Source: Halobaculum rubrum
GTDB lineage: Archaea > Halobacteriota > Halobacteria > Halobacteriales > Haloferacaceae
NCBI RefSeq assembly: GCF_019880225.1
Contig: NZ_CP082284.1
Coordinates: 2,232,001 to 2,296,000 of the forward strand
Direction of reading: 5' to 3'
Length of the DNA: 64,000 bases
How positions within the stretch are numbered: the stretch's first letter is position 1; the number at the start of each line of letters is the position of its first letter. Positions 30,516 to 56,899 of this stretch are shown here, piece after piece. The notes below the pieces were generated by a model that searched no databases, was not told the origin of the DNA, and was given only the letters and a program-made list of their open reading frames with translations. The position numbers were made by a program, and so were the translations under genes.

Positions 30516-30783
30516 GGGTTGGACTCGTTCGGTACTCCCACGCCATGCTGATTTGTTATGAACGTGTTTCTCGGGGATCGATGCCCGTGTTCCCCTGGAC
30601 CGATTCGTCCTTCTGACTCCGCACGTGGTGCTGTTAGCCCCGGTATGTGTCGGCTATCTCGGTCGGTGTGAGCGAGCGGTGACGCTCCTTTCCGTTCGTC
30701 TCCTGAGGCGCGAAAGAAGCGAGTGCCTCGCATCGCTCGCTTGTGCCCGCCCGCCCTGTTTTGAATCCGCTCGGGAAGCATTC

Positions 30784-30837
30784 GAGGTCTCGCTTCGCTC
30801 GACTCACCGCGGACTCACGGGTCGCTCCGCTTCCCGT
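30784..30837 (-). repeat. Two GNA-triloop hairpins downstream of tRNA-Leu
   Basis: Read on the minus strand these match the family at 55358-55625. The first, 30784-30805, has cap gagcgaagcga between arms gagtc and ga(c)ctc, with one bulged base. The second, 30817-30837, has arms acggg and cccgt and cap aagcggagcga. In both, cap positions 3 and 9 are G and C. The hairpins are in the sense orientation of the tRNA and lie 171-224 bases beyond its 3' end. Confidence 0.65.
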
Positions 30838-30872
30838 TCGTCTCTCGATGCGCTTCCTCCGGTCGCGCCTCG

Positions 30873-30899
30873 CACTGCGCGGGACCGGATTCGAACCGG
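30873..30899 (-). repeat. Displaced 27-base copy of the tRNA-Leu 3' end
   Basis: Bases 30873-30899 equal bases 31005-31031 exactly (direct repeat, 132 bases apart). On the minus strand the shared segment covers the T arm, the 3' acceptor strand, the discriminator A and three flanking bases. Nothing else of the tRNA is present in this copy. Such duplications of tRNA 3' ends are the usual trace left by integrase-mediated insertion at a tRNA gene, but no integrase gene or element lies between the copies. Confidence 0.7.
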
Positions 30900-31007
30900 A
30901 ACCAGACGTTCCGAGTCGCTCCCTTCGGTCGATTCCCGGCCTGCGACTGGGAGGGTCCGAATCCGCGCCTGCTCGTTTGCTCACTCCACTCCGTTCCGCT
31001 CGCTCAC

Positions 31008-31092
31008 TGCGCGGGACCGGATTCGAACCGGCGGACCTCTACAGGACAGCGTCCTAAGCGCTGCGCCGTTGGCCTGGCTTGGCTACCCGCGC
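31008..31092 (-). tRNA. tRNA-Leu (anticodon TAG)
   Basis: An 85-base class II tRNA without intron. The acceptor stem is gcgcggg paired with cccgcgc, with discriminator A. The anticodon loop cttagga, closed by agcg/cgct, gives TAG at positions 34-36. The T loop is ttcgaat between gccgg and ccggt. The long variable arm (about ten bases, between the anticodon stem and T stem) fits leucine. The CCA end is not encoded. The unusually repeat-rich 3' flank is described separately. Confidence 0.93.
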
Positions 31093-39122: not shown

Positions 39123-39202
39123 GTCCTCGGCTTCGTGTCGGCAGTCAAATGACCGTCGAACGAGTTCCGCCGTCGTTGCGTCGCGTGTGTCGCGTCAGAA
39201 GC

Positions 39203-39223
39203 AGGCTTGGGGGGAGCTGAACC
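39203..39223 (-). repeat. Imperfect displaced copy of the tRNA-Lys 3' end
   Basis: Bases aggcttggggggagctgaac resemble gggcttggagggagttgaac at 39409-39428, with about three mismatches in 20 (aggcttgg-g-ggag-c-tgaac). On the minus strand this corresponds to the T arm and 3' acceptor strand of tRNA-Lys, lying about 200 bases downstream of the gene. It parallels the exact copy behind tRNA-Leu. Confidence 0.5.
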
Positions 39224-39245
39224 AAGCCGTCGGCTCGCGTCGCTC

Positions 39246-39383
39246 ACGGCTCACTCCGTTCGCCGTTTCCATCGAGGCGCTCACCTCGCTCGCGCCTCGC
39301 GTCGCTCGCCGCCGTCTACTTCAACACCTTCAGATGGCCTCCGAACGGCGCGGTTCCTCGAACGGTTCGCTCCGCTCACCGTT
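39246..39383 (-). repeat. Three GNA-triloop hairpins downstream of tRNA-Lys
   Basis: Read on the minus strand: 39361-39383 has arms aacggt/accgtt with cap gagcggagcga; 39273-39299 has arms cgaggcgc/gcgcctcg with cap gagcgaggtga; 39246-39266 has arms acggc/gccgt with cap gaacggagtga. Stems are perfect (6, 8 and 5 bp), caps are all 11 bases, and cap positions 3 and 9 pair as G-C, G-T and A-T. Same family as 55358-55625, in sense orientation relative to the tRNA. Confidence 0.75.
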
Positions 39384-39407
39384 CTCGTCACGGTGCGCCT
39401 CACAGAA

Positions 39408-39481
39408 CGGGCTTGGAGGGAGTTGAACCCCCGACCGACGGATTAAGAGTCCGTCGCTCTCCCTGACTGAGCTACAAGCCC
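39408..39481 (-). tRNA. tRNA-Lys (anticodon CTT)
   Basis: A 74-base class I tRNA, intronless. Acceptor stem gggcttg pairs with caagccc and the discriminator is G. The anticodon loop ctcttaa, between gacgga and tccgtc, gives CTT. The D arm (gctcagtcagggagagc) and T loop (ttcaact between gggg and ctcc-type arms) are normal. CCA is not encoded. Downstream lie hairpin repeats and a degraded copy of its own 3' end. Confidence 0.93.
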
Positions 39482-52029: not shown

Positions 52030-53307
52030 ATGAAGAACACGGAACTCAACCGACGAGACGTAGTGAAAGGCGCCGGCGCCCTCGGGGCGGCCGGCATGGT
52101 CGGACTGGCGGGCTGCTCGGGTGGCGGTGGCGGCGACGCCCCCGTCGAAGCCCTGCATGCCTGGACCGGCGGCGACGGCGCGACGGCCGCCGAAGCGCTC
52201 GAAGAAGCGTTCAACGAGGAGTATCCGGACACGGAACTGGAGATGAACCCCATCGGCGGGGGCGGCAACCAGAACCTCGACGCGGTTGTCGCTAACCGGC
52301 TGCAAAACGACAACCCGCCCAGCACGTTCGCGAACTGGCCGGGCCCCAACCTGGGCCGCTACGAGGGCGTGCTCGGCGACATCTCCGACCTCTGGGAGGA
52401 GGCCGGATTCGCCGACAGCCACGTGCAGGAGGCCGTCGACCTGCACCAGTACAACGGCGCGTTCCGCGCGGTCCCGCTCGGCTCGCACCGCCTGAACTGT
52501 CTGTTCTACAACACCTCGGTCGTCGAGGAGGCGGGCGTCGACCCGTCCTCGCTGAACAGCGTCTCCGCGCTCGTCGACGCGCTGGAGACGGTCGCCAGCG
52601 AGACGGACAAGACCCCGATGACCCACGGCGCCAGCGGCACGTGGACGACGACGCAGCTGTTCGGCGTCACGCTGTTGGGCTCGGCCGGCTACGACGAGTA
52701 CATGAACTTCGTCGAGGGCAACCCCTCGGAAGACGCCGTTCGGAGCGCCTTCGAGTCGCTCGCGACGATCCTCGAGAACTACATCAACGACGACGCCGCC
52801 TCGATCGGCCTGACCGAGTCCAACCAGAACATCATTCAGGGCGAGGCCGCGTTCATCCACCAGGGCAACTGGGCGGCGGGCGCGTACCGCAACGCCGAGG
52901 ACTTCGAGTACGAGTCCGACTGGGGCTTCAAGACGTTCCCCGGCACCGAGGGGATGTACACCCTCCACTTCGACTCGTTCCTCTTCCCGTCGAACAACCC
53001 GAGCCCCGAGAACACGCGGACGTGGCTGGAGTTCGTGGGCGGCGAGACCGCGCAGGTCGCGTTCAACCAGTACAAGGGCTCGATCCCGACCCGGACCGAC
53101 GTCGACATGTCCGATTTCGGTCCGTACCTGCAGCAGACGGCCGAGGACTTCGCGGACGCCGACGAGCGCCCGCCGAACATCCAGCACGGTCTGGGTATCA
53201 CGGCCGAACAGCGGTCCACGCTGAACGACGTGATCTCCAGCGAGTTCTCCGGGCCGTACAACGTCGACGCCGCCACGCAGGGCTTCGTCGACGCCGTCTC
53301 CAACTGA
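52030..53307 (+). CDS. Sugar ABC transporter substrate-binding lipoprotein (glucose/mannose-type, SBP family 1)
   Basis: Extracellular sugar-binding lipoprotein, 425 residues. The N-terminus carries the twin-arginine sequence LNRRDVVKGAG and the lipobox VGLAGCSGGG, with Cys29. The mature part begins EALHAWTGGDGATAAEALEE and includes NPIGGGGNQNLDAVVANRLQ and PPSTFANWPGPNLGRYEG, blocks that resemble glucose/mannose-binding GtsA-type proteins of bacteria more than maltose- or glycerol-phosphate-binding ones. The gene has its own promoter, palindrome and Shine-Dalgarno site, and it is first in a four-gene operon, ten bases before the first permease gene. Confidence 0.93.
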   Translation: MKNTELNRRDVVKGAGALGAAGMVGLAGCSGGGGGDAPVEALHAWTGGDGATAAEALEEAFNEEYPDTELEMNPIGGGGNQNLDAVVANRLQNDNPPSTFANWPGPNLGRYEGVLGDISDLWEEAGFADSHVQEAVDLHQYNGAFRAVPLGSHRLNCLFYNTSVVEEAGVDPSSLNSVSALVDALETVASETDKTPMTHGASGTWTTTQLFGVTLLGSAGYDEYMNFVEGNPSEDAVRSAFESLATILENYINDDAASIGLTESNQNIIQGEAAFIHQGNWAAGAYRNAEDFEYESDWGFKTFPGTEGMYTLHFDSFLFPSNNPSPENTRTWLEFVGGETAQVAFNQYKGSIPTRTDVDMSDFGPYLQQTAEDFADADERPPNIQHGLGITAEQRSTLNDVISSEFSGPYNVDAATQGFVDAVSN

Positions 53308-53317
53308 CCGCGTTCTC

Positions 53318-54394
53318 ATGCGCGACATTCTTTCGAGCGTTCGACAACGACTCCGGCGCGCAGCCCACGCGACCCGGACGAGTGGCGACGCGGGCGACGG
53401 CGGGGAAGACGACACCGTCGCGAGCGACGACGGCGACCCAGCCCTCGACGGCGCCGCGGTCGTGACCGACGGCGGAACTGCCGCCAGCGGCGACGGAATC
53501 GCCGAACGGCTCAACGACCGGTTCGGCGACGACTTCACCGAGTCGGCGCCGTTCTGGCTGCCGCCGTTCCTGCTGGTCGGGCTGTTCGTCTACGGCGCCA
53601 TCGCGTGGAACTTCGTCATCTCGCTGACCGACTACGAGGGGTTCATCGGCCCGGACTACTCGGACCTCGACTTCGAGATGTACGTCCGGGCGGCCAACGA
53701 CTCGGGGGTCATCGACGCGACGGTCAACACGTTCCTGTTGGTCGTCGCGTTCACCGCCGTCGCGCTCGCCTTCGGGATGGTGCTCGCGATCCTCATCGAC
53801 CGGAACATCCGGTTCGAGAACACGTTCCGCACCATCTACCTGCTGCCGATGAGCCTCTCGTTCGTCGTGACGGCGCAGTTCTGGCTGTGGATGTACAACT
53901 ACAACAACGGCGTCGTCAATATCGTCCTCGGCACGGCCGGGATCGGCCCGATCAGCTGGATCGGGAACTCCTCGCTCGTCCTGTGGGCGGTGGTGTTCGC
54001 GCTCGTGTGGCAGTTCTCCGGGTACACGATGGTCGTGTACCTCGCGGGACTGCGCGCGATCCCGACCGAACACTACGAGGCCGCCCGCGTCGACGGCGCA
54101 TCGACGCTGAAGATGTACTGGCGGGTCATCCTCCCGCAGCTGAAGGGGTCGACGATCAGCGCCGCCATCGTCCTGATGGTGTTCGCGCTGAAGGCGTTCG
54201 ACTTCCTGTACTCGCTGGTCAGCGGCTACCGGCCGCCCAACGGGGCGGACATCCTCGCGACCAAGATGGTGCGTGAGGCGTACAGCACGAACAACTGGGC
54301 GTACGCGTCGGCGATCGCGATCATCCTGTTCCTGATGGCGCTGTCGATCATCGGCCCGTACCTGTATTACGAGTACAAACAGGGGAACCTATGA
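53318..54394 (+). CDS. Sugar ABC transporter permease 1 (MalF-type)
   Basis: Inner-membrane permease of 358 residues. A long acidic cytosolic N-terminal arm (about 1-80, SGDAGDGGEDDTVASDDGD) precedes the first span, FWLPPFLLVGLFVYGAIAWN; about six spans follow. The EAA loop that docks on the ATPase is EHYEAARVDGASTLKMYWRV (about 248-267). It carries a periplasmic loop after span 1 (TDYEGFIGPDYSDLDFEMYV). It overlaps the next permease start by four bases (ATGA). Together with the second permease it should form the transmembrane channel. Confidence 0.93.
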   Translation: MRDILSSVRQRLRRAAHATRTSGDAGDGGEDDTVASDDGDPALDGAAVVTDGGTAASGDGIAERLNDRFGDDFTESAPFWLPPFLLVGLFVYGAIAWNFVISLTDYEGFIGPDYSDLDFEMYVRAANDSGVIDATVNTFLLVVAFTAVALAFGMVLAILIDRNIRFENTFRTIYLLPMSLSFVVTAQFWLWMYNYNNGVVNIVLGTAGIGPISWIGNSSLVLWAVVFALVWQFSGYTMVVYLAGLRAIPTEHYEAARVDGASTLKMYWRVILPQLKGSTISAAIVLMVFALKAFDFLYSLVSGYRPPNGADILATKMVREAYSTNNWAYASAIAIILFLMALSIIGPYLYYEYKQGNL

Positions 54395-55353
54395 GCGACG
54401 AACCACTCGACGGATCCGACTCGACGGACTCGACCGGCCGAACCGACGGCATCGCCGACCGCCTCCGCGACGACCTCGCGGGGGTCGACGGCTACCGCGT
54501 CGCGCTGTACGTCACGATCCTCGCGATGACCGCCTTCTTCCTGACGCCCATTGAGTCGGGACTGGTCACGGCGTTCAAGACGAATCCGGAGGGGATCTCG
54601 TCGACCCTGCCGTTCGCGCCGCCGCCGCCGCGGTTCTTCACGCTTGAGAAGTGGCAGACCGCACTGGCGGCGCTCGGTCGTGGGATGGTCAACAGCGCGC
54701 TGTACGCGGTGCCCGCGACGATCCTCTCGGCGCTGCTCGGGAGCTTCGCCGCCTACGGGCTGACGCAGGCCGACTGGCGGGCCCGGTACAAGGCGCCGGT
54801 GTTGACCATGCTCGTCGCCGGGATCTTCATCCCGTATCAGGCCGTTCTCGTCCCGCTGTCGCAGTTCTGGGGCGCGATGCCGCTGCAGGAACTGCTCACG
54901 CCACTGTGGGTGCTGGGCGTGCCGGAGGCGTACACCGGGCTCGTCGAGTTGACGATCACTCACGTCGCGTACGGCATCCCGATCTGTATGGTGCTGTTCC
55001 GGTCGTACTACCGGAACGTGAGCGAGGAGATGATCGAGGCGGCGCGCCTCGACGGCGCGACGTTCCGCCGGACGTACCGCCGGATCGTCTTCCCGATCTC
55101 GACGCCGATGTTCGCGGTCGTGCTCATCTACCAGTTCACACAGATCTGGAACGACCTGCTGTTCGCGCTCATCCTCGTGTCCACCGAGTCGAGTCCGGCC
55201 GCCCCGGTCGTGCTCATCCTCGCGGGCCTCGGGGAGTCGATGGAGGGACAGGACTTCGCGCTCCGGATGGCCGGGGCGTTCATCGCCGCGCTGCCGACGC
55301 TCATCGTGTACATCATGTTCGGCGAGGAGTTCGCCGAGGGGGTGGCCACGTGA
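54391..55353 (+). CDS. Sugar ABC transporter permease 2 (MalG-type)
   Basis: Second permease subunit, 320 residues, with about six spans: YRVALYVTILAMTAFFLTPI first, then LTMLVAGIFIPYQAVLVPL and others. The EAA loop is SEEMIEAARLDGATFRRTYR (about 210-229) followed by RIVFPISTPMFAVV. Short acidic N-terminal arm. It overlaps the first permease gene by four bases. Directly after its stop begins the hairpin array (55358-55625), which separates it from the ATPase gene by 397 bases, an unusual spacing for a haloarchaeal ABC operon. Confidence 0.93.
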   Translation: MSDEPLDGSDSTDSTGRTDGIADRLRDDLAGVDGYRVALYVTILAMTAFFLTPIESGLVTAFKTNPEGISSTLPFAPPPPRFFTLEKWQTALAALGRGMVNSALYAVPATILSALLGSFAAYGLTQADWRARYKAPVLTMLVAGIFIPYQAVLVPLSQFWGAMPLQELLTPLWVLGVPEAYTGLVELTITHVAYGIPICMVLFRSYYRNVSEEMIEAARLDGATFRRTYRRIVFPISTPMFAVVLIYQFTQIWNDLLFALILVSTESSPAAPVVLILAGLGESMEGQDFALRMAGAFIAALPTLIVYIMFGEEFAEGVAT

Positions 55354-55357
55354 AGTG

Positions 55358-55625
55358 CGAGGACGAGCGAAGCGAGTCCTCGAATCGAGCGGGGAGTGAA
55401 GCGACCCGCGAGACGGGCGAGGGCGAACGCAGTGAGCCCTCGAAGCGAACGGCGAACGCAGTGAGCCGTGAGAAGTGCGAGGCACGAGCGAAGCGAGTGC
55501 CTCGAAGCGAGCGGCGACCGACGGGAGCCGCGAGCAATGCGGGGGCCGACAGCAGTGAGCCCTCGAAGCGAGCGGCGACCGGCGGGAGCCGTGAGAACCG
55601 CGAGGCCGACCGCAGGGAGGCCTCG
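55358..55625 (+). repeat. Array of nine GNA-triloop hairpins between permease and ATPase genes
   Basis: Nine hairpins at 55358-55382, 55389-55409, 55418-55442, 55449-55469, 55478-55504, 55511-55531, 55541-55564, 55572-55592 and 55601-55625. Arms are 7, 5, 7, 5, 8, 5, 4-6, 5 and 7 bp, alternating long and short, so the true unit is about 60 bases. Arm sequences differ but stay complementary (cgaggac/gtcctcg, cgagggc/gccctcg, cgaggcac/gtgcctcg, cgaggcc/ggcctcg, for example). The 11-base cap is ga-N-c-g-n-n-g-N-ga; positions 3 and 9 pair as G-C, A-T or C-G in eight of nine. Spacers alternate aa(g/t)cga with about eight bases starting gag. The seventh unit is degraded. Confidence 0.85.
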
Positions 55626-55750
55626 AATCGAGCGGTGCGAGTCGCGAACGCGTACGACGCGCCGACCGCAACACCGACGGCGTGTGCCGTCGGATCGACC
55701 GATCACGACCGATCGACCCGCACTCGCGGGTCACGTGGGGGACTCTGACA
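55626..55750 (+). other. Remainder of the spacer upstream of the ABC ATPase gene
   Basis: About 125 bases after the hairpin array. It has short CG-rich tracts (cgtacgacgcg) and a weak dyad around gatcgaccgatcacgaccgatcgac (55691-55715 region: three gatcga/cgatc-type repeats). No gene is seen. It precedes ATG 55751 and might hold a secondary promoter or operator for the ATPase gene, but no clear TATA box is present. Confidence 0.35.
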
Positions 55751-56899
55751 ATGGCACAACTCGAACTCGAGGACGTACGAAAGGTGTTCACGGACGACGA
55801 CGGCTCGGATATCGTCGCCGTCGACGACGTGACGGTCGACATCGAGGACGGGGAGTTCCTCGTGCTCGTCGGCCCGTCAGGCTGCGGGAAATCGACGACG
55901 CTACGGATGGTTGCCGGGCTGGAGACGGTCACCAGCGGCGACATCCGTCTCGGCGGCCGGTCCATCGTCGGCCAGAAGCCGCAAGACCGGGACATCGCGA
56001 TGGTGTTCCAGTCGTACGCGCTGTACCCGCACATGACCACCCGGGAGAACATGTCGTTCGGGCTGGAGGAGTCCACGGACATGGCGGACGCGGAGATCGA
56101 CGAGCGCGTCGGGAACGCGGCCGACATGCTCGACATCCCGGAACTGCTCGACCGGAAGCCGTCGGAGCTGTCCGGCGGGCAACAGCAACGCGTCGCGCTC
56201 GGCCGGGCGATCGTCCGTGAACCGGAGGTGTTCCTGATGGACGAGCCGCTGTCGAACCTCGACGCCAAGCTCCGCTCGCAGATGCGGACGGAACTGCAGC
56301 GCATCCAGGACGACCTGGACACGACGACCGTCTACGTCACGCACGACCAGACCGAGGCGATGACGATGGGCGACCGGATCGCGATCCTCGACGGCGGCGA
56401 GCTCCAACAGGTCGGCACGCCGCTGGAGTGTTACCACCGCCCGGCGAACCACTTCGTCGCGGGGTTCATCGGCGAGCCGGCGATGAACTTCTTCGAGGCG
56501 ACCGTGGAGGGCGACCGGCTGGTCACGGACCGCTTCGAGTACCCGCTGACGGCCGACATGCGCGAGGCGGTCGAGGGCGCCGACGGCGTGACCCTCGGTA
56601 TCCGCCCGGAGGATATCGAGGTCACGGCCGACGACCGGGCGACCGACGGCGACGAGTTCGCCACGGTGGTCGACGTCGTCGAGCCGATGGGCAACGAGAA
56701 CGCCGTCTACCTCGGCTTCGGCGGGGACGCGACGGACACGTTCGTCGCGACCGTCGGCGGCATGCGCCGCATCGACGCCGGCGAGTCCGTCGTCGCGCGG
56801 TTCCCGTCGGACGCGGTTCACCTGTTCGACGCCGCCAGCGGCGACGCGTTGCACAACCGTTCGCTGGAGGACGCTGCCGATACCGATCCGCGGATCTGA
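55751..56899 (+). CDS. Sugar ABC transporter ATP-binding protein (UgpC/MsmK-type)
   Basis: ATPase of the sugar importer, 382 residues. It has Walker A GPSGCGKST (about 39-47), Q loop VFQSYALYPHMTTRENMSFG, signature LSGGQQQRVALGRAI (about 141-155), Walker B VFLMDEPLSNLDAKLR and switch VYVTHDQTEAMTMGDR. The C-terminal third (about 240-382) is the TOBE/MalK regulatory domain with GIRPEDIEV. The final residues (LHNRSLEDAADTDPRI) are acidic. ATG 55751 follows a poor leader; an upstream frame reads through the hairpins and is rejected. It completes the importer coded by the three upstream genes. Confidence 0.95.
   Translation: MAQLELEDVRKVFTDDDGSDIVAVDDVTVDIEDGEFLVLVGPSGCGKSTTLRMVAGLETVTSGDIRLGGRSIVGQKPQDRDIAMVFQSYALYPHMTTRENMSFGLEESTDMADAEIDERVGNAADMLDIPELLDRKPSELSGGQQQRVALGRAIVREPEVFLMDEPLSNLDAKLRSQMRTELQRIQDDLDTTTVYVTHDQTEAMTMGDRIAILDGGELQQVGTPLECYHRPANHFVAGFIGEPAMNFFEATVEGDRLVTDRFEYPLTADMREAVEGADGVTLGIRPEDIEVTADDRATDGDEFATVVDVVEPMGNENAVYLGFGGDATDTFVATVGGMRRIDAGESVVARFPSDAVHLFDAASGDALHNRSLEDAADTDPRI

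Follow-up and report, generated by a model that had tools for sequence, protein, structure and literature searches.

The window (the whole stretch of 64,000 nucleotides from Halobaculum rubrum that we analysed) contains an operon that, by its Pfam domains, encodes a carbohydrate-type ABC importer: a solute-binding protein, two permeases and a MalK-like ATPase (Table 1). In the spacer between the second permease gene and the ATPase gene lie nine hairpins, occupying exactly the interval 55358-55625 given in the first-pass annotation and repeating, as described there, about every 30 bases (29-31 nt), with long stems of 7-8 bp alternating with short stems of 5 bp. The earlier statement that all units but one carry the cap also holds: eight of the nine are intact and fit GA-X-[C/T]-G-n-n-G-X'-GA with X and X' complementary and at least five paired arm bases, the exception being the degenerate unit 7. 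In 2000 dinucleotide shuffles of the region no such hairpin with strictly Watson-Crick arms appeared, against seven in the real sequence, and each of 100 shuffles of the entire window gave at most one such hairpin.

Table 1. Features of the window that are discussed in the text (cap start, first base of the GA cap)
Feature	Coordinates	Strand	Cap start	Description
Third family cluster	30730..31007	-		partly degenerate; behind tRNA-Leu (31008-31092); exact 22-nt tail copy at ~30876-30897
Second family cluster	39202..39387	-		behind tRNA-Lys (39408-39481); at its end an imperfect tRNA 3'-tail copy (19/22), ~39202-39223
ABC solute-binding protein gene	52030..53307	+		SBP_bac_8, TAT signal
ABC permease gene 1	53318..54394	+		BPD_transp_1
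ABC permease gene 2	54391..55353	+		BPD_transp_1; directly upstream of the array
Unit 1	55358..55382	+	55365	long, CGAGGAC-GAGCGAAGCGA-GTCCTCG; 4 nt after the permease stop codon
Unit 2	55389..55409	+	55394	short, GCGGG-GAGTGAAGCGA-CCCGC
Unit 3	55418..55442	+	55425	long, CGAGGGC-GAACGCAGTGA-GCCCTCG
Unit 4	55449..55469	+	55454	short, ACGGC-GAACGCAGTGA-GCCGT
Unit 5	55478..55504	+	55486	long, CGAGGCAC-GAGCGAAGCGA-GTGCCTCG
Unit 6	55511..55531	+	55516	short, GCGGC-GACCGACGGGA-GCCGC
Unit 7	55541..55565	+	55548	degenerate long; cap GACAGCAGTGA, X/X' unpaired, arm mismatches; placed by eye, fails the hairpin scan
Unit 8	55572..55592	+	55577	short, GCGGC-GACCGGCGGGA-GCCGT
Unit 9	55601..55625	+	55608	long, CGAGGCC-GACCGCAGGGA-GGCCTCG
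Tenth unit	~55626..55650			short, degenerate; follows the array
ABC ATPase gene	55751..56899	+		ABC_tran, OB_MalK, TOBE_2

No hairpin of the array is directly followed by a T-run, the feature of intrinsic terminators, and the flanks are T-poor. A search of Rfam 15 returned no match to the array above the gathering score, the best being a chance-level one of 12.5 bits against a cut-off of 49. At about 55661-55750, upstream of the ATPase gene, we also observed a stretch (GACCGCAACACCGACGG and nearby; L102-L110) that is conserved in most congeners, some of them hairpin-free, and that is possibly an internal promoter or leader.

The array had been taken for a feature of the ABC operon; it is instead one cluster of a dispersed, genome-wide family of short DNA palindromes. 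A covariance model built from 44 copies finds 92 matches at E ≤ 0.1 in the genome, and all among the matches listed are chromosomal. The genome (3.06 Mb) contains 43 copies of the 12-mer GAGCGAAGCGAG (it is a mirror palindrome, so a reversed-string control of this count is uninformative), and many more clusters were seen around its sites and in arbitrary 20-kb stretches, the genome-wide numbers being based on such searches and sampled stretches. Two further clusters lie in the window itself (Table 1). Long arms are mainly of the type CGAGGNC..GNCCTCG and short ones of the type ACGG[CG]..[CG]CCGT, the short hairpins being usually flanked by a second GA/GA pair; long and short forms alternate into mosaics at many loci besides the array, and tandem arrays occur at several, with periods of 61, 70 and 77. 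Extending the elements outwards by base composition revealed no clean boundaries. Long hairpins are often followed by another type, roughly ACGGCGGCGAG...GAGCCGCCCAC, whose loop varies and which likewise contains an internal GA/GA pair (L010, L027, L033, L040, L164 and others).

The family is not confined to this genome but spans the Halobacteriales. A covariance-model search of the kind proposed in the first-pass annotation found it in 34 of 40 relatives (the own genome counted among the 40), including all 11 sampled genomes of the genus, with 19-92 matches each. Among 295 genomes drawn from the phylum, searched at E ≤ 0.001 and with stricter filters than the 40 relatives, matches were found in 46 of 53 Halobacteriales and in 2 of about 240 other members. 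When a 21-base pattern of the long hairpin was compared with 84,980 species genomes, all 80 loci among the matches listed bore haloarchaeal names (Halorubrum, Halobaculum, Natrinema, Natrialba, Halovivax, Halorientalis, Halosimplex, Halorhabdus, Halomicrobium, Natronomonas and others, one locus being titled 'Halobacteriaceae bacterium'), which shows the breadth of the family among those matches and not its exclusiveness. The same pattern had no match in the IMG/VR viral collection. Our search of the open-licence literature on haloarchaeal REP-type repeats found no description of a GA-capped family, and exact-string searches returned unrelated papers only; the family is apparently undescribed so far. 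For Haloferax, a study of 3' ends reports that hairpins lie upstream of 503 termination sites.

What the copies share is the tip, GA-X-C-G-N-A-G-X'-GA. In 527 of 568 distinct strict caps (those with at least 4 of 6 arm positions paired) X and X' are complementary, that is 93% against 34% expected from the columns, which bears out the covariation first noticed in the array; there are 234 G-C, 150 A-T, 142 C-G and 1 T-A pairs and 41 non-Watson-Crick combinations. The model, which somewhat prefers paired X/X', supplied many of these loci, and others came from the 21-base pattern, which leaves X and X' free; pairing of the arms in alignment A1 is partly circular because copies were selected for it. 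The cap and its closing pairs stand as proposed; the triloop, given earlier as G-n-n, is mostly G-N-A family-wide (at least 90% of the 44 copies have A in column 19). A search that started from the arms showed a pronounced maximum at loops of 11 nt, almost all of which begin and end in GA on one strand. The tip of GA/GA and triloop first described is supported, and it is strand-polar. The GA/GA element, which forms no Watson-Crick pairs, is invariant while its surroundings drift in compensated fashion. As DNA, d(GCGAAGC) is exceptionally stable and nuclease-resistant (PMC10527192 and its references). X = T is nearly absent from the cap (2 of 568), though A, G and C are common; it would place GATC in the cap. 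A kink-turn was considered and rejected by inspection, the 3-nt bulge being absent.

Copy number varies rapidly at orthologous sites. Across 11 congeneric genomes the permease-ATPase spacer holds 9 units in the window, at least 4 in G004, 4 in G010, 2 each in G006 and G009 and 1 in G005, while G001 keeps a degenerate remnant and G002, G003, G007 and G008 have none. Where present, the first long arm begins 3-5 nt after the permease stop, in sequences that differ yet are compensated (CGAGGAC, CGAGGCC, CGAGGCAC, CGCGGTC); congeners keeping the array mostly retain its pairing, and the conserved leader of the ATPase gene is intact on the far side. In a gene for a Hef-like helicase/nuclease (ERCC4 and helicase domains), 4 of 11 genomes (G000, G010, G004, G008) carry in-frame hairpin units in a presumably disordered linker, and seven congeners lack them, including the closest, G005 (96% identity). 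Local tandem duplication of units is evident. These comparisons show that units are gained or lost between related species at both sites, whatever the mechanism. With 0-9 copies in the spacer among congeners and in-frame units that come and go in Hef, we read the family as one that turns over as DNA. Among the alternatives of the first-pass annotation, the 'REP-like mobile hairpin' is supported.

Such turnover could also be expected if the hairpins arose simply from mutation or base composition in GC-rich intergenic DNA, through hairpin-templated correction and slippage, and served neither recognition nor function; frequent tandem arrays, and the lack of any preference for wobble pairs described below, agree with this as well. 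Templated correction would, however, erase the GA/GA mismatch, which is invariant while the arms vary freely, and members of the phylum outside the Halobacteria have almost no copies, though few of them match in GC content. We regard this explanation as very unlikely.

Placement was analysed in 131 deduplicated clusters from the own and related genomes, with genes called by a codon-bias caller trained on the own genome; 108 clusters lie outside called genes. In 51 of the 104 intergenic clusters whose neighbours were both called, the GA strand is that of the upstream gene, and in 53 it is the opposite one: 33 clusters are antisense to both flanking genes, 24 are sense to both, 27 lie between convergent and 20 between divergent genes. 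An antisense excess suggested by the first 21 clusters was gone at 48 and at 131. The distances are not random. The 5' edge of the GA strand falls 0-9 nt after a sense stop codon in 15 of 51 clusters, where 4.1 would be expected (p = 3e-6); the own genome by itself gives 9 of 19 against an expected 1.7 (p = 5e-6). In 16 of 53 clusters, against 2.8 expected (p = 4e-9), this edge stands 38-48 nt away from a divergent gene's start codon, just outside the TATA/BRE region (-40 edge) of promoters that appear to be leaderless. All these p-values are optimistic because some clusters are orthologous, hence not independent, and the gene calls come from our own codon-bias caller. The 3' edge never lies 19 nt or less from a stop codon or 48 nt or less from a same-strand start, an asymmetry to which degenerate 3' tails missed by the scan may contribute. 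Units inside genes are sense in 22 of 23 cases, for which coding constraint on a polar acidic frame may suffice. In real protein genes such units are read as acidic linkers resembling EAERSEAS, and congeners differ in their presence (L013, L052, L053 and others; Hef, L331-L341).

These data bear on whether the array evolved as an RNA that regulates the sugar ABC operon in cis, either by stabilising the mRNA upstream or by restricting expression of the ATPase. Its hairpins are in sense between the permease and ATPase genes, the first arm begins 4 nt after a stop codon and at a near-constant offset in the congeners that have it, arm changes are compensated, and the RNA fold is very stable: under RNA parameters the GA strand is 3-4 kcal/mol more stable than its complement, a difference that falls below 1 under DNA parameters. 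Like units nevertheless stand at dozens of unrelated loci in both orientations, and the spacer is empty in 4 of 10 congeners and holds only a remnant in one more. Nor is wobble pairing preferred. Arm mismatches comprise 34 G.U and 31 A.C, and those at X/X' 6 G.U and 22 A.C; since G.U is no commoner than A.C in the arms and rarer at X/X', RNA is argued against as the main level of selection. We consider it unlikely that the array evolved as such a regulator, and the earlier proposal of selection through mRNA fails as a general rule, given the near-equal orientations, the 33 clusters antisense to both neighbours and the absence of a G.U excess. An mRNA effect is plausible at the array itself, judging from its sense orientation and its distance to the permease stop, but it is difficult to envisage such a role for the half of clusters that are antisense or divergent. 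Antisense and promoter-flush units call for a different explanation, the simplest of which would be that they are tolerated where they are.

From the dispersal, the covariation of arms and X/X', the GA/GA invariance, the gain and loss at orthologous sites and the non-random placement, all of which are observed, we hypothesize that the array belongs to a haloarchaeal REP/BIME-like family of strand-polar DNA palindromes that multiply and are lost as DNA and that probably modulate upstream genes where they lie in sense, a reading that we hold to be probable. Each unit would be a GA-strand hairpin with the tip arm-GA-X-C-GNA-G-X'-GA-arm, long and short forms alternating into mosaics. Units would multiply and vanish through local duplication, recombination or some mobiliser, and would persist where promoters and reading frames stay unbroken. 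Where the GA strand is transcribed right after a stop codon, the hairpins probably act as a block to 3' exonucleases or delay ribosomes at termination; those of the array would then shift expression of the upstream genes relative to the ATPase gene. In E. coli, REPs that lie no more than 15 nt from a stop codon are reported to lower translation (PMC12306157).

A second association of the family is with tRNA genes. Seventeen of the 131 clusters lie near a tRNA, which in 15 is upstream and in sense. A copy of the tRNA 3' tail (at least 18 of 22 positions) follows within 420 nt downstream in 24 of the 48 distinct tRNAs in our loci. In this sample, which is biased to hairpin loci, such copies are associated with sense hairpins, being present for 18 of 26 tRNAs that have hairpins and for 6 of 22 that have none (p = 0.008). 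Both tRNA genes of the window have tail copies and hairpins, and at several loci two or three tails stand in tandem with hairpins between them. In most segments the tail copy is preceded, at a distance of about 40-130 nt, by a stretch with partial complementarity to it (mean 10.1 of 14 positions, against 8.1 in shuffled segments) that fits its own tail better than those of other tRNAs in 32 of 36 cases; together the two can close a long hairpin, sometimes with a GA cap at its tip. Alternation of tails with GA-capped hairpins can be seen at 30730-31092 and 39202-39481 of the window (minus strand) and at L001, L009, L084, L086, L092, L123, L157, L206, L211 and L277. At L049 (G000 chromosome, 633095) the hairpins are followed, about 70 nt further on, by an exact second copy of an 18-nt palindromic stretch from the gene's 3' end (GAGGAAGTGGAACTTCCT), which resembles the tRNA-tail pattern. 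Flanking direct repeats were found at a minority of sites only, chiefly as tRNA tails.

The tail copies behind tRNAs are no more than suggestive of recombination of the integron attC or tRNA att kind, and arrays of them may leave room for a site-specific recombination system. The hairpins might then be footprints or substrates of recombination targeting gene 3' ends, tRNAs above all, with a folded strand that is attC-like in principle; placement flush behind stop codons agrees with this, as do the units that alternate with 22-nt tail copies, up to three in tandem, mostly preceded by a complementary stretch. Against it, most non-tRNA sites lack a flanking repeat, 8 of the 26 hairpin-bearing tRNAs have no clear tail copy, and the tail copies could be old att remnants in which hairpins settled later. 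We find this origin doubtful, and give a similarly low probability to its fuller form, in which an undescribed recombination or transposition system of haloarchaea would use the GA-capped hairpin as its folded single-strand substrate, inserting units at gene 3' ends and building hairpin/tail arrays at tRNAs.

It is highly improbable that these are classical REP elements moved by a RAYT/TnpA-REP (Y1 HUH) transposase. Dispersed short palindromes in mosaics and a strand-polar tip would suit such a partnership, as would a replication-strand bias near orc1/cdc6, which is weak and unstable (p = 0.005 in the pooled data within 300 kb, no significance at 500-700 kb, and a flat GC skew). However, no Y1 transposase was found in five relatives that carry 86, 44, 40, 37 and 37 copies, and another genome, with ten Y1 matches, is free of the family; the single Y1 gene of the own genome resembles IS605, has a tnpB-like neighbour and is not near family caps. 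No GTAG or CGTC tag was seen in the hairpin flanks, where the 5' consensus is only a G at -1, and IS200 is the only Y1 subclass reported in Archaea (PMC6006769). The Y1-free genomes rich in copies, the IS605-like Y1 gene, the missing tag and the IS200-only report together disfavour a RAYT partner. We recognised no transposase linked to the family, and target duplication is absent at most sites. On the G000 chromosome, hairpin orientation seems to flip at about 1.40-1.55 Mb, near the main orc1/cdc6 gene, a weak effect not seen in all relatives.

The REP/BIME-like reading would make several questions testable in Haloferax or Halorubrum: how such units spread without RAYT, whether stop-proximal hairpins affect translation in Archaea, and why tRNA tails are copied. 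For annotation, the units create false C- and N-terminal extensions as well as real in-frame linkers. Among known systems, the d(GCGAAGC) mini-hairpins with tandem sheared G-A pairs correspond to the commonest core of the family tip, GCGAAGC or GCGNAGC, but are a structural motif from chemistry and not a genomic family. Rickettsia palindromic elements likewise occur between genes and in frame in unrelated protein genes (PMC10969869), but are about 150 bp long with a conserved peptide, whereas our units measure 21-27 nt and stand in variable numbers in acidic linkers. Archaeal MITEs of Halobacterium and Haloquadratum are also non-coding repeats of haloarchaeal genomes (PMC10969869), but share terminal repeats with a parent transposon and have target duplications, the latter not seen at most sites of the family.

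Bacterial REP-like repeats and RAYT transposases are well studied. Bacterial REP/BIME elements share with the haloarchaeal family their form as palindromes of 20-40 nt, dispersed and largely intergenic, with two alternating forms in mosaics, and a strong class just after stop codons: 0-9 nt here, 1-20 nt from the ORF end in E. coli, with an effect below 16 nt (PMC12306157). The haloarchaeal family differs in having neither a GTAG/CGTC tag nor RAYT, in its tip of tandem GA/GA and a C-GNA-G triloop, in its spread across an archaeal order, and in units that also occur as in-frame parts of genes and, together with tail copies, behind tRNAs. The visible part of the RepRanger table includes no haloarchaea among its organisms. 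By the broad definition, short dispersed extragenic palindromes, the family is REP/BIME; it fails two features of the RAYT-based REP/REPIN (REPtron) definition. An order-wide archaeal family with an invariant strand-polar tip and without RAYT would be either a separate REP-like lineage or a convergent one.
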